Assembly: GCF_004364775.1 (NCBI RefSeq)
Contig: NZ_SOAL01000001.1
Coordinates: 372,001 to 436,000 of the forward strand
DNA length: 64,000 nucleotides
DNA from: Comamonas sp. JUb58
Lineage (GTDB): Bacteria; Pseudomonadota; Gammaproteobacteria; Burkholderiales; Burkholderiaceae_C
Direction of reading: 5' to 3'
The translations under genes and the position numbers were made by a program. Position 1 is the stretch's first letter; the number at the start of each line of letters is the position of its first letter. This document shows, piece by piece, positions 59,094-64,000 of this stretch. The notes below the pieces were generated by a model. It was not told the origin of the DNA. It worked only from the letters and a program-made list of their open reading frames with translations, and made no database searches.

Positions 59094-59474
59094 TTAAAAA
59101 TCAAGAGGTTGTAGACGGTTATCCGTGTGCCAATAGACCACGCCATCACTCTCACTCAGCGCAACCTTGACCAAACCGCCACGACAGGGACCGCCGGCAC
59201 AGGCTCCAGTATCGGGCACATAGGCTGCACCATGGGTGGCGCAGAGCAACCAGTTACCTGTGTCGTCGAAAAAACGCCCCGGCTGGTAGTCCATCTCCAT
59301 CGCCACATGGGTGCAGCGGTTCAAGTAGGCGTGGACTCCCTCGTGGTAGCGGATGGCAAAGGCCTGGCAGGTCTGGCCGGCATAGACCACATCAAAGGCC
59401 ACCGCGCGCCCACCGTGCAGCAGCGCATCGCTCTGGCACAAGGCAATCATCTGCGCCGGTACTTCCGCCATCAC
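59094..59474 (-). CDS. Small Rieske (2Fe-2S) protein
   Basis: The product is 126 aa. The cluster ligands are visible as C-x-H in NRCTHVAM (about residues 54-56) and C-x-x-H in LLCATHGAAY (about residues 78-81). No membrane segment is present, so it is a soluble ferredoxin-like protein. Partners are unknown. It lies between a HAD phosphatase and the S49 peptidase in a conserved arrangement. Confidence 0.9.
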   Translation of the reverse strand: MMAEVPAQMIALCQSDALLHGGRAVAFDVVYAGQTCQAFAIRYHEGVHAYLNRCTHVAMEMDYQPGRFFDDTGNWLLCATHGAAYVPDTGACAGGPCRGGLVKVALSESDGVVYWHTDNRLQPLDF

Positions 59475-59531
59475 CGCACCTGTTCACCGAGGTTCATCTG
59501 ACTGTACATACAGACAGTGATTGCACCATAG

Positions 59532-60188
59532 CTAGGCATGATCCGCCATCCACTGTTGCAGTTCAGCAACGGTATGGGCCACATACAGGGGCTTGAAGGC
59601 CTCAAAACCCTCATGGTGGTGGGCGCCATAGCTCACCCCCACGCTTGGGCAGCCCGCATTGACGGCCATTTGCAGATCATGCGTGGTGTCACCCACCATC
59701 AATACGCGCTCGGGCGCCACATCCAGCTCGGCCATCAACTCCTGCAGCATCAGCGGATGGGGCTTGCCAGCCGTCTCGTCCGAGGTGCGCGTTGCCTGGA
59801 AGCGCCCCTTGAGCAAGGTGGTATCCAGCACCCGGTCCAGCCCACGGCGGTTCTTGCCGGTGGCAATGGCCAGCAGGTGGCCGCTGGCCGTCAGTTGGTC
59901 CAGCAGTTCCAACACGCCCTCAAACAAGGTCACCTGCTCCTGGCGCTTGAGGAAATGCAGGCGGTAGCGGTTGGTCAGTTCCACCATCTTGTCCTCCGGC
60001 ACATCGGGCGCCGCATGGCGCAGCGCGCTGTGCAGGCTCATGCCGATCACATACTTTGCCTCCACCAGGCTGGGCACCGTACCGCCCACATCCCGCACCG
60101 CATCCTGGATCGACAGCGCAATCGCTGCGGTCGAGTCAAACAGGGTGCCATCCCAGTCAAAGGCAATCAGGTCAAATTGGCGCGCCAT
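59532..60188 (-). CDS. HAD-IA phosphatase (phosphoglycolate phosphatase-like)
   Basis: The product is 218 aa. HAD motifs: FDWDGTLFDS (nucleophile Asp), AIATGKN, K in TAGKPHP, and MVGDTTHDL. The cap domain is of the C1 type. It probably dephosphorylates small phosphosugars or phosphoglycolate. In related bacteria it follows rluC directly; here an RNase E-like gene lies between. Confidence 0.88.
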   Translation of the reverse strand: MARQFDLIAFDWDGTLFDSTAAIALSIQDAVRDVGGTVPSLVEAKYVIGMSLHSALRHAAPDVPEDKMVELTNRYRLHFLKRQEQVTLFEGVLELLDQLTASGHLLAIATGKNRRGLDRVLDTTLLKGRFQATRTSDETAGKPHPLMLQELMAELDVAPERVLMVGDTTHDLQMAVNAGCPSVGVSYGAHHHEGFEAFKPLYVAHTVAELQQWMADHA

Positions 60189-60656
60189 GGGGTGCTCTTT
60201 CTATATCGGTCACAAATTTCATCCATCGGCCACTAGCGGCATGGGCATGCTCGCTATGGGGTAAACGCACCCGAATCTGGTGAGCGCAGCTGAGCCCGAG
60301 GGGCTCGGCAGGGTCGTTGGTTTAACGGCAGGCATTTTAGTTCAGCCCCCAGGGTTTACGCAGGGCTGCCGTTTGGTGGATAGCGTCCCAGCAAACCCGC
60401 GCAGCCAAAAGGCATGTGTCCCTTGCCTGTCGCCACGAACCGACACCGGCCTACTTTATATGTACCTAAACGCAAGCCGCCCGCAGCAGGCTACAAGGGC
60501 CTACGCTCTTCGAGACAGCGCGACATGGGCTTTGAATTTTCGTTTCAAACCCGTTCAAAGGCGCACACTCCCGCAGCAACAGCTTGATTAGCATGGTGAA
60601 TTGACCGCGTGCCTAGCCGACAAAGCAGGTTTTACACATCCCACACCCATCGCACC
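60189..60656. other. Intergenic region upstream of the RNase E-like paralogue
   Basis: About 468 bp with no gene seen. It should hold the promoter of the following gene and of the HAD gene on the reverse strand. The 12-base segment CCGCGTGCCTAG at 60605 also occurs in the rne leader at 62993. No clear ribosome site lies before the next ATG. Confidence 0.45.
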
Positions 60657-61520
60657 ATGAAACGCATTCTGATCAATGACACACACGCCGATGTGCGACG
60701 CCTCGCCATCGTGGACGGCCAGCAACTGCTGGATTGCGAGATCGAAATAGAGGGCGAAGAGCTGCGTAAAGGCAATATTTACCAAGGCATCATCAGCCGC
60801 ATCGACCGCGCCCTGGGGGTATGCATGGTGTATTACGGCGAAGACTGCGATGGAATGCTGCCTCTCAAAGACATCAGCAAGCAGTGCAGCGATGAAGGCT
60901 TTTCCCCCGGCCAGCTGTACAACCCGCCAGCGGTCAACGAAGGGGATGCGCTGATGGTTCAGTTGATTGAAGAACAGCGGGAAGCCCAAGCAGCCGTCCT
61001 CAGCACCGCGATTACGCTCTCCGGTCGCTATCTGGTACTGGCACCCAGTCAGTATGGCAATGGCCTGTCTCGATACGCGGGAAGCCCTGCGCAGGCGCGA
61101 CTACCAGATTTGCCGAGCCAGCTGGCTTATCCCCCAGGCATGGCGATTGCTGCACGCCATGCCGCCCAGGGCCACAGCGCCACCGAGCTGCAAAGAGATC
61201 TGGATTACCTGCTCAAACTCTGGGAAGCCATTGAACGCGCCGCGCAGTACAACCAGGAGGCATACCTGATCTACCAGGAGTCCAACTTGGTAAGCCGCAC
61301 GATCCGCGACTATTTTCAAGAAGATTTCGCCGCCATCCTGATCGACTGCGAGGCCCTGTATGAACAAGCCCAACGGTTCATGGCACTGGTAATGCCCGAG
61401 CATGCAGACAGGGTTCAGTACTATCAGGAAGACACTCCGCTGTTCGAGCACTTCCAGATCGCCGACCAGATGGAAGCGGTCTACCCGCTAGCCGGGCGGA
61501 CTAAGCCATCCCTATCCTGA
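60657..61520 (+). CDS. RNase E/G N-terminal-domain paralogue (no catalytic region)
   Basis: The product is 287 aa from ATG 60657; a GTG at 60609 adds 16 residues. It aligns with the start of the neighbouring rne without gaps over residues 1-66 (42 identical by my count) and onward to residue 273 of rne. It keeps the RNase H-like/S1/5'-sensor region but ends before the DNase I-like part, so the catalytic Asp residues (E. coli D303, D346) and the Zn-link are absent. RNA-contact residues differ: Phe57 and Phe67 of RNase E are Met, and the Arg-Thr of the 5'-phosphate pocket is Arg-His (167-168). The reading frame is intact. It could be an RNA-binding regulator or partner of RNase E, or a decaying duplicate. 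Confidence 0.8.
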   Translation: MKRILINDTHADVRRLAIVDGQQLLDCEIEIEGEELRKGNIYQGIISRIDRALGVCMVYYGEDCDGMLPLKDISKQCSDEGFSPGQLYNPPAVNEGDALMVQLIEEQREAQAAVLSTAITLSGRYLVLAPSQYGNGLSRYAGSPAQARLPDLPSQLAYPPGMAIAARHAAQGHSATELQRDLDYLLKLWEAIERAAQYNQEAYLIYQESNLVSRTIRDYFQEDFAAILIDCEALYEQAQRFMALVMPEHADRVQYYQEDTPLFEHFQIADQMEAVYPLAGRTKPSLS

Positions 61521-61573
61521 AGACAGACGTCCCAAGCGTTTTTAGCGCCTGGGTGCCAAAACAGGCGCCCTGT

Positions 61574-62593
61574 CTATTCGGCCGCCGAAGCCGCCGCCAC
61601 AAAATCCGCCAGCTCCGCAGGCAGCTCGGCACCCAGCTGTACGCGCTCTGCCGTCTGCGGGTGGTTGAACTGCAGGCGCCAGGCGTGCAGGAACATGCGC
61701 TTGAGGCCATGCTTGGCCAGGCGCTTGTTCAGGTCGAAGTCGCCATATTTCTCATCGCCGGCGATCGCATGGCCACTGCTGGCCAGGTGCACGCGGATCT
61801 GGTGGGTGCGGCCGGTCTTGATCGTCACCTCCAGCAGGCTCATCGCCGGCAGGCCCAGCTGGTGGCGAGCGGCAAACACTTTTTGCACCTTGACCAGCGA
61901 GACCGAGCGCATGCCCTCGGGGTCGTCGGCCGTGGTGGCGCGCACGCGGCGCTCGCCATCGGGCAGCAGGTATTTGCGCAGCGGCGTGTCGATCACCTTC
62001 TTGTTGGCCGGCCATTCGCCGATCACCAGGGCCAGGTAGGTCTTACCCGTCTCGCGTTCGCGGAACTGGTCCTGCAGATGGGTCAGGGCCGAACGCTTCT
62101 TGGCCACCAGCAAGATGCCCGAGGTTTCGCGGTCCAGCCGGTGCACCAGCTCCAGAAAGCGGGCATCCGGGTGGGCGCGGCGCAGCTGCTCGATCACGCC
62201 AAAGCTGACGCCCGAGCCGCCGTGCACCGCCACGCCGGCGGGTTTGTTGATCGCCAGCATGACATCGTCATCGAGCAACAAGGGAAACTCCCTAGCTGGC
62301 ACCGCGCGCTCGGCTTCGTCGGGTTTGGCAGCCACGCGCACCGGCGGAATCCGCACCACATCGCCCGGTTGTACGCGAGTGTCCGCTGTCGTGCGGCCCT
62401 TGTTGATACGGACTTCACCCTGGCGGATGATGCGGTAGATATGGGTCTTGGGTACGCCTTTGAGGTGGCGCATCAGAAAATTGTCCAGGCGCTGGCCTGC
62501 GTCGTCGGGGTGGACCTCGACCAGCCTTACAGCCACTGGGGGTGCTTGTGGACTACGGGGCTCGCCCGGTTTGCCCCCTATAATATGTTTCAC
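61574..62593 (-). CDS. rluC: 23S rRNA pseudouridine synthase RluC
   Basis: The product is 339 aa from GTG 62593. The N-terminal S4 RNA-binding region (AGQRLDNFLMRHLKGVPKTH) is followed by the catalytic motif VHRLDRETSGILL with its Asp. It modifies 23S rRNA at positions 955, 2504 and 2580 in E. coli. It is divergent from rne, the conserved arrangement. It converges with the RNase E-like paralogue. Confidence 0.95.
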   Translation of the reverse strand: MKHIIGGKPGEPRSPQAPPVAVRLVEVHPDDAGQRLDNFLMRHLKGVPKTHIYRIIRQGEVRINKGRTTADTRVQPGDVVRIPPVRVAAKPDEAERAVPAREFPLLLDDDVMLAINKPAGVAVHGGSGVSFGVIEQLRRAHPDARFLELVHRLDRETSGILLVAKKRSALTHLQDQFRERETGKTYLALVIGEWPANKKVIDTPLRKYLLPDGERRVRATTADDPEGMRSVSLVKVQKVFAARHQLGLPAMSLLEVTIKTGRTHQIRVHLASSGHAIAGDEKYGDFDLNKRLAKHGLKRMFLHAWRLQFNHPQTAERVQLGAELPAELADFVAAASAAE

Positions 62594-63181
62594 CTGCGCG
62601 ATAGAGTTATTGGTTTACCGGTGAGCAGTTTAATTCACCCACCAGTACCCGCACAGGCCGGTCGATGTCTGGCTGATCGCCTTGCCGCCCCACCTGCATA
62701 CCAAAAGATTGCGCAGGGGACGCCAAGTGAATCAGGCGGACAGACACATTGAAACAACGAAAAAACAGATTTTTGGCGACAGCTGTCGCAAAGGCCTGCA
62801 ACCAGGCCCCGCTCAGCTGATCGTCTTCACACCAAACATGTTGATTTTGTGGGCTTGGATGGCAACTCTCTGGCACAGCAGCAGCTGTGCGCCAGTGCGT
62901 CTTGCCGTGCCCGCTGTGCGCATGTTCTCAGGGCAGATATCCCAGCCGGAGGCAGCCCAGCGCTGGCTGGCCGGGTATTTACATGCCCTCTCCCGCGTGC
63001 CTAGATCCCCTGTGCTGACATAAGTATTACCAGCAAACATGACACGCTCTGTGAATTCTTTCGTTTCTCTGCGTCTGTCCCGGCATCTGTGGCTCCAGTA
63101 AGAGCCTGTTTATTGTTGGGATTGGAGACAGGTGCCTGACTGACAAAGGCAGCCTGTCCCGCATTACGAAGGACGCGCATC
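62594..63181. other. Long rluC/rne intergenic region (rne leader)
   Basis: A 588-bp non-coding stretch before rne. In E. coli the rne mRNA has a long leader through which RNase E represses its own synthesis. The length here fits a similar long leader. A stable hairpin is listed separately. I see no convincing gene. Confidence 0.55.
63127..63158 (+). promoter_or_regulatory. rne: Hairpin just upstream of the rne ribosome site
   Basis: GACAGG-T-GCCT, a 9-base loop, then AGGC-AG-CCTGTC: ten pairs with a small internal bulge. It is 9 bases before the GAAGGA ribosome site. It is a candidate target for RNase E autoregulation. Confidence 0.5.
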
Positions 63182-64000
63182 ATGAAACGGATGCTGATCA
63201 ACGCCACGCAAGCTGAAGAGCGCCGCCTCGCCATTGTCGATGGCCAAAAGCTGCTGGACTACGAAATTGAAATCGAAGGCCGCGAACAACGCAAAGGCAA
63301 TATCTACAAAGCCGTTGTTACCCGGGTCGAACCCTCTTTGGAAGCCTGCTTTGTCGACTACGGCGAAGACCGCCACGGCTTTCTGCCCTTCAAGGAAATC
63401 TCCAAGCAGTATTTCGCCGAAGGCGTCTCCCCCAGCCAGGCCCGCATCAATGATGTGATCAAGGAAGGCCAGGAGCTGATCGTTCAGGTCGAAAAGGAAG
63501 AACGTGGCAACAAGGGCGCGGCCCTGACCACCTTCATCTCGCTGGCCGGCCGCTATGTGGTGCTGATGCCCAACAACCCCCGTGGTGGTGGTGTCTCGCG
63601 CCGCATCGAAGGCGACGAGCGCGCCGAGCTCAAGGAGGCGATGGACCAGCTGGACTACCCCAAGGGCATGTCCATCATTGCGCGCACCGCCGGCATTGGC
63701 CGCAGCGCACCCGAACTGCAATGGGACTTGAACTACCTGCTCAAGCTCTGGGGCGCCATCGACGGTGCTGCCAAGTCGGGCAAGGGTGCCTTCCTGATCT
63801 ACCAGGAATCGAGCCTGGTGATCCGCGCAATCCGCGACTATTTCCACAATGACATCGGCGACATCCTGATCGACACCGATGACATTTATGAACAAGCCCA
63901 GCAGTTCATGGCCCATGTGATGCCTGAGCACGCTGCCCGCGTCAAGCGCTACCGCGATGACGCGCCGCTGTTCAGCCGCTTCCAGATCGAGCACCAGATC
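63182..64000 (+). CDS. rne: Ribonuclease E (5' part only)
   Basis: The window holds 273 codons from ATG 63182, with a GAAGGA site. MKRMLINATQAEERRLAIVD at the start, the S1 domain (about 39-120) with KEERGNKGAALTTFISLAG, and the 5'-sensor Arg-Thr in SIIARTAGIG (168-169) are typical. It is the main endoribonuclease for mRNA decay and rRNA/tRNA processing. The catalytic DNase I-like part and C-terminal scaffold lie beyond the window edge. Confidence 0.97.
   Translation, partial: MKRMLINATQAEERRLAIVDGQKLLDYEIEIEGREQRKGNIYKAVVTRVEPSLEACFVDYGEDRHGFLPFKEISKQYFAEGVSPSQARINDVIKEGQELIVQVEKEERGNKGAALTTFISLAGRYVVLMPNNPRGGGVSRRIEGDERAELKEAMDQLDYPKGMSIIARTAGIGRSAPELQWDLNYLLKLWGAIDGAAKSGKGAFLIYQESSLVIRAIRDYFHNDIGDILIDTDDIYEQAQQFMAHVMPEHAARVKRYRDDAPLFSRFQIEHQI

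Follow-up and report, generated by a model that had tools for sequence, protein, structure and literature searches.

A stand-alone RNase E N-domain paralogue beside rne in a small group of Comamonas, a putative non-catalytic partner of RNase E

RNase E is essential in E. coli. Its subdomains are named RNase H-like, S1, 5' sensor and DNase I (PMC9841416), and in E. coli RNase E the dimer interface is largely formed by the DNase I domain (PMC4432964). A likewise shortened RNase E large domain is seen in FAU-1, the RNA-binding protein AU-1 of Pyrococcus. In FAU-1 the DNase I domain is only partly lost and both catalytic residues may be kept; the protein carries a DUF402 domain and binds AU-rich RNA, is archaeal and not a recent rne duplicate (PMC4432964). 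A functional likeness to the protein described here, in the form of protein contact with RNase E, is possible for RraA/RraB, RebA, Srd, RapZ and the phage protein Dip: RebA binds the 5' sensor of RNase E and inhibits the enzyme (PMC10783494), Srd and RapZ act on the N-terminal half (PMC13232886), and Dip binds the scaffold half through acidic patches. None of these is described as RNase E-derived in the accessible parts of the corresponding papers (PMC10783494, PMC4980113, PMC13232886). Going by titles and the beginnings of abstracts, no report of a paralogue like the present one was found in the open-access literature.

The paralogue is encoded in a 64,000-nucleotide stretch of Comamonas sp. 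JUb58 (the window), in the local gene order HAD(-), paralogue(+), rluC(-), rne(+). The names HAD and rluC for the first and third of these genes are probable ones and agree with a first-pass annotation of this DNA. The features are listed below, where G000 is the window genome, G019 (Comamonas sp. BIGb0152) and G017 are the two other carriers, and G013, G067 and G031 are relatives with an empty site.

59532..60188, minus strand: probable HAD-family hydrolase, adjoining rluC in insert-free genomes
60210..60231, minus strand: remnant of the rluC 3' end beside HAD, ending in the old rluC stop codon and marking the insertion point (alignment; clearest in G019)
60311..60345, plus strand: promoter-like block, 35 bases identical in G019, resembling the start of the rne upstream region
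60346..60656, plus strand: leader derived from the rne leader, with its inner part gone and weaker predicted folding (alignment, folding)
60657..61520, plus strand: RNase E N-domain paralogue, 287 aa, no DNase I domain, stop codon included (ORF, Pfam, phmmer, alignment)
61551..61570, plus strand: terminator-like hairpin between the paralogue and rluC (consensus match only; 10 such sites in the scanned region, 2.6 expected from shuffles)
61574..62593, minus strand: rluC, 339 aa, its last codons unlike those of the empty-site relatives (343 aa in G013, G067 and G031)
62625..62667, plus strand: rne upstream block matching the promoter-like block of the paralogue (G017 paralogue against G000 rne, 80% over 45, E 6e-6)
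63182..64000, plus strand: rne, the full-length parent gene, running past the end of the window

The ORF at 60657..61520 starts with ATG and is uninterrupted over 287 aa, with no internal stops. Residues 1-277 of its product match E. coli RNase E 1-280 (phmmer, E 1.5e-56) and are 55% identical to the N-domain (residues 1-277) of the rne gene in the same genome, which is itself intact and 1009 aa long. The two share the subdomain order RNase H-like/S1/5' sensor and a related upstream block. Pfam RNase_E_G is matched at 115.3 bits (cut-off 25.5), covering only positions 1-156 of the 270 in the profile, and Pfam S1 at 23.3 bits (cut-off 22); the threshold of the RNase E equivalog NF008074 of NCBIfam is not reached (212.3 bits against 908). 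The DNase I domain, which carries the catalytic D303 and D346, is absent, the protein stopping about 10 residues past the position equivalent to rne 277, and the region of the Zn-link cysteines C404/C407 and the small domain is missing, as is the scaffold. With E. coli subdomain boundaries that we take to be 1-35/215-278 (RNase H-like), 36-118 (S1) and 119-214 (5' sensor), the paralogue would hold these three subdomains whole and end just before the catalytic one. ORF, Pfam and alignment thus agree with the first-pass annotation of an intact stand-alone gene without the catalytic part. The alignment to rne given there as 1-273 in fact reaches 277, and only one gene, rluC, lies between the paralogue and rne, not two. 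That the fold core is kept, as also said there, is suggested by the alignment. A further homologue on contig C28 (502-aa frame, 28% identical to the paralogue) is probably RNase G, judged by similarity and frame length only. This older paralogue has the same N-terminal architecture, and differs in that its frame fits the whole enzyme and in that its N-domain, although more diverged, retains 33 basic residues.

A stand-alone copy is found in three of 53 Comamonas genomes (G000, G019 and G017). All three copies lie at the same site, have intact frames of 284-288 aa and diverge from rne after the same codon. Since intact relatives occupy the same site in two other species, the paralogue is not a chance ORF. 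It was not found in the other 50 of the 53 genus genomes, of which 49 have HAD and rluC together and one, G005 (85% complete), has no rne match at the cut-off used. In a survey of 53 genomes, 52 from the genus and one, G171, from the family, the HAD-rluC gap is 29-228 bp in 49 other genus genomes and 18 bp in G171, compared with 1361-1418 bp in the three carriers; HAD and rluC are normally adjacent (18-228 bp in 50 of 53) and parted here, as first noted. The empty sites in the nearest relatives look clean, which permits a clean comparison with and without the paralogue; the nearest relative examined that lacks it is C. koreensis KCTC 12005 (G067). In C. odontotermitis (G068) and its relative G007 the gap of 123-128 bp (L045 3267-3395, L046 3272-3395) looks by eye unlike that of the koreensis group, and it gave no paralogue-like match.

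Beyond the genus, no further stand-alone N-domain was seen in 399 family genomes (E 1e-35), in 250 genomes of the order with completeness of 90% or more (E 1e-40, with the G017 copy as query) or in 281 genomes of the class with completeness of 95% or more (E 1e-60, with the rne N-domain as query, a cut-off that a strongly diverged copy could escape). These samples overlap and were judged by match counts per genome. No independent truncations were seen elsewhere; at the cut-offs used, second matches occur only in G403, G468 and G944. Those of G468 are fragments at contig ends, and the short rne genes of G929 and G171 are likewise short only because of contig ends. In G403, a genome from the same family, a further RNase E-like copy lies in a 502-aa frame and is 87% identical to the rne N-domain of the window, while the main rne falls into two frames (G403:C2:18816-19631 and G403:C1:581235-582064), possibly a scaffold-less spare or an assembly issue. 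The class-level genome G944 has two RNase E-like genes with the same score in frames of 749 and 901 aa (G944:C21 and G944:C26), perhaps a duplicated rne. A scan of genome contigs gave no matches with the window protein as query and at least 80 loci with the G019 protein, including Comamonas sp. BIGb0152. Sixty plasmid records match, none with 60% identity or more among the 20 matches listed. On the Xanthomonas campestris plasmid NZ_CP017320.1 (13799-14628), an Rne/Rng-like gene and a hypothetical protein lie under a match in two pieces, 43.6% identical to the query. The paralogue is thus seen only in a small Comamonas group.

The paralogue most probably stems from a partial duplication of the nearby rne gene that took in part of the region upstream of it. 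The 470 bp upstream of the paralogue match the rne upstream region at both ends, namely in the promoter-like block 60311-60345 and directly ahead of the ATG; what lies between them in rne is absent. An rluC end is recognisable beside HAD in G000 and G019, in the latter as the old stop codon and 24 coding bases; no such remnant was detected in G017. An 11-bp rluC piece is repeated at both edges of the insert in G019. The simplest route would be a tandem duplication from the rluC 3' end to rne codon ~277, after which the surplus rluC was lost; we infer this history, and another insertion route is possible. As the end point at the domain border would be fixed by the duplication, it is alone no proof of design. 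In the tree the three paralogues are separated from the 53 rne sequences by one split (support 100/98), on long branches. A separate origin of the G017 copy is rejected by all tests (AU p=0.000265), and the data are consistent with a single origin of the three copies. They are best placed as the sister group of the koreensis-group rne (AU 0.95). An origin outside Comamonas is rejected by AU (0.025) but not by KH or SH, and placement with the koreensis and odontotermitis group (AU 0.072) or elsewhere within Comamonas (0.135) is not rejected.

Selection on the gene was analysed with pairwise codon models (own script, F3x4) and with branch models of eight sequences, three of them paralogues, over 276 codons with one omega across sites. 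Pairwise omega is 0.27-0.28 for the three paralogue pairs, and omega=1 is rejected in each (2dlnL >50). Branch omega is 0.262 for the paralogue and 0.24 for the window branch, against 0.022 for rne (~12-fold lower); omega=1 is rejected whether imposed on all paralogue branches (2dlnL 101.7) or just on the window branch (21.9), and no difference in omega was detectable between paralogue branches (2dlnL 1.0). Third-position GC is 0.68-0.70 in the paralogue and 0.74-0.78 in rne. Omega differs among subdomains (RNase H-like 0.16, S1 0.37, 5' sensor 0.30; LRT 21.1, 2 df). The paralogue thus evolves under purifying selection as a protein, and the earlier suggestion that it is kept by selection is borne out by omega of 0.24-0.28.

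These values weigh against a slowly decaying duplicate, that is, a partial copy in the course of being lost whose frame is open by chance or because the loss is recent. Such decay would agree with the absence of the gene from most relatives and with the presence of three non-carriers inside the same clade, and also with the state of its expression signals, since much of the predicted leader structure is gone and no Shine-Dalgarno match precedes the ATG of the window copy (0 kcal/mol, compared with -8.3 to -5.0 kcal/mol for the 53 rne genes and a mean of -3.3 for random 17-mers). Translation of the window copy would therefore appear as the weakest link. The match is weak in G019 (-2.5) and good in G017 (-7.2), the starts of rluC and plsX in the window are likewise weak, and the better match (-5.8) of an in-frame GTG at 60609 makes that codon a candidate alternative start. 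However, all three copies are intact, and in a neutral simulation started from the G019 copy, with substitutions only and no indels, the open frame survives at window-branch divergence in just 2 of 2000 replicates (2, 0, 8 and 0 of 2000 at the four divergences tried). Among the marks of a decaying duplicate named in the first-pass annotation, absence holds for most close relatives, including G067, while dN/dS is clearly below 1. Decay is rather unlikely.

What the selected protein has lost is seen in an alignment of the three paralogues with the 53 rne N-domains and E. coli. Changed in all three paralogues and in none of the 53 rne sequences are F67 (M/L/L), K43 (Q/Q/N), K106 (E), K112 (Q) and T170 (H/D/S). 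The last is T in all 53 rne sequences, and the neighbouring R169 is kept in all paralogues. K112 presumably contacts RNA. H65, an H in 52 of 53 rne, is D/D/E, and F57, invariant in rne, is M/M/F, with G017 keeping F. R3, Q22, K38, Y60, R141 and R169 are kept in all three. The changes first noted in the window copy, F57 and F67 to M and T170 to H beside a kept R169, are all found in the alignment, and the KEERGNKGAA stretch is indeed replaced. Roles for F57, F67, R169 and T170, and for the groove residues considered below, are described in PMC9841416. Basic residues (K+R) fall from 37 in rne to 22-24 in the paralogues, or 35-40% fewer, and the net charge, -7 in rne, is -18 to -21. Rne-invariant K/R are lost just slightly more than other residues (Fisher p 0.12, 0.043 and 0.062). 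Fourteen columns are common to the three paralogues against invariant rne, which fits a common new role and equally common descent alone.

With these key residues lost in all copies and basic residues reduced, the protein appears unlikely to bind RNA at the known sites of the S1 and 5'-sensor subdomains. The idea that the protein binds RNA alone is therefore disfavoured, although some RNA contact is possible, since R3, Q22, F269, R169 and R141 are kept in all three. The mixed oligomers also proposed at first pass are unlikely through known interfaces, because the dimer interface lies mostly in the DNase I domain, which the paralogue lacks along with the Zn-link and small domain.

Our preferred reading, tentative at a probability of about 0.4, is that the paralogue is a partial rne duplication, kept by selection, that serves as a non-catalytic protein partner of RNase E. 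The duplication most probably left a gene of its own, with an rne-like upstream block, a shortened rne leader, the RNase E N-domain and a terminator-like hairpin. Its product would be made alongside RNase E, and the RNase H-like subdomain, the best kept, would contact RNase E, or else a protein whose usual docking site is the RNase E N-domain, so tuning or shielding RNase E instead of binding RNA. Protein contact is favoured because the S1 and 5'-sensor residues are lost, the tetramer-building parts are absent and the RNase H-like part is best kept. Our best guess from the sequences is a modulator or decoy that acts on RNase E at the protein level, and the titration of RNase E suggested at first pass may come close to it, whether RNase E itself or its partners are titrated. 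As in a conserved non-catalytic paralogue (a pseudoenzyme partner), omega is well below 1 (0.26) and the gene is intact in all three carriers; the link to active RNase E is putative. Against a partner role, the RNase E N-domain is identical over 277 aa in G000, a carrier, and in G067 and G031, non-carriers, so no co-adaptation is seen. The absence of the gene from the nearest relatives, alleles that depart from the species tree and the window ATG also count against it, as do the ~12-fold higher omega and lower third-position GC than in rne, the just slightly stronger loss of rne-invariant K/R and the RNA-contact residues that are kept. The gene is real, selected and, by the tests made, of single origin, with a plausible mechanism of birth and a putative function. 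It would be another non-catalytic paralogue of an enzyme, a kind already known. A natural, selected copy of the N-domain with key RNA contacts lost would be a convenient probe for the side of the RNase H-like subdomain that makes protein contacts, and it might uncover a new control of mRNA decay or a protection of RNase E against phages.

The last possibility bears on a second alternative, in which the N-domain copy is a bait that soaks up phage or other factors targeting this part of RNase E, with alleles recombining at one site. The paralogue tree pairs G000 with G019, whereas concatenated flanking genes pair G017 with G019 at 100% (single genes 86, 98 and 97); vertical descent along the species tree costs 56.6 log units and is rejected (AU p=7e-9). 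The alleles are 54-70% identical, compared with 99.0-99.7% for the RNase E N-domains of the same genomes. Synonymous divergence between G000 and G019 is 0.69 in the paralogue (rluC 0.58, HAD 0.61, rne N-domain 0.30), and between G017 and G019 it is 1.16, well above rluC (0.49), HAD (0.44) and rne (0.12). Either alleles moved between species by recombination here, or a number of old alleles underwent sorting and loss; to explain why G067, G013 and G031 lack the gene, one must assume that it was lost or replaced, or that G000 gained it late. The low identity of the alleles, the conflict with the species order and the patchy presence at a fixed site would all suit a bait, and phage proteins acting on RNase E exist, T4 Srd being described as binding the N-terminal half (PMC4980113, PMC13232886). 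However, no report of a phage factor that acts on RNase E in Comamonas came up in the open-access literature, judged by title, scanning viral contigs by pattern gave no close relatives of the paralogue, and nine phage records match, none with 60% identity or more among the matches listed. Omega is below 1 in all three subdomains, where three sequences cannot reveal site-wise positive selection. Such a bait is unlikely, and its most specific form, a dedicated RNase E decoy stripped of catalysis and main RNA contacts, whose divergent alleles are exchanged to bait attackers or hijackers such as phage proteins, is slightly more so.

Binding of structured RNA by the stand-alone protein, through that half of the PMC9841416 groove which lies on the RNase H side, is a third alternative to a protein partner of RNase E. 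R3 and Q22 are kept in all copies, F269 is as in rne, 270 is Q/R/Q and 268 is H as in E. coli (R in Comamonas rne); the RNase H-like subdomain is also the most constrained. The small-domain half of the groove (K433, R488, R490) is missing, however, and the net charge of the RNase H part, -7 in rne, is -13 to -15 here, which together with the lost S1 and 5'-sensor contacts makes this reading quite improbable.

The leader was examined as well. The 35-bp promoter-like block is identical between G000 and G019, while the rest of the leader is ~67-69% identical, and a 30-of-30 identity window was reached by 1 of 2000 shuffles. The block was not called in a sigma-70 consensus scan. The last 130 leader bases of the three copies have predicted folding energies of -27.6, -42.0 and -38.2 kcal/mol; for the corresponding rne leaders the prediction is stronger, at -55.6 kcal/mol. 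Single-sequence folding does not support a conserved autoregulatory hairpin in the paralogue leader, and an Rfam search of window positions 59400-64000 gave no matches up to E 5. That the transcript and not the protein matters, its rne-derived leader with the conserved upstream block competing for an RNase E autoregulation like that of E. coli, where rne is feedback-regulated in cis through its 5' UTR (PMC10989929), is very improbable, as this leader has lost the inner part found in rne, folding is weaker and constraint at the protein level is strong. In the rne leaders of Comamonas themselves (e.g. 63052-63181), strong hairpins are predicted 5' of the ribosome-binding site in most of 13 of the 53 leaders; their stems differ in sequence, and they are a candidate rne autoregulatory element.
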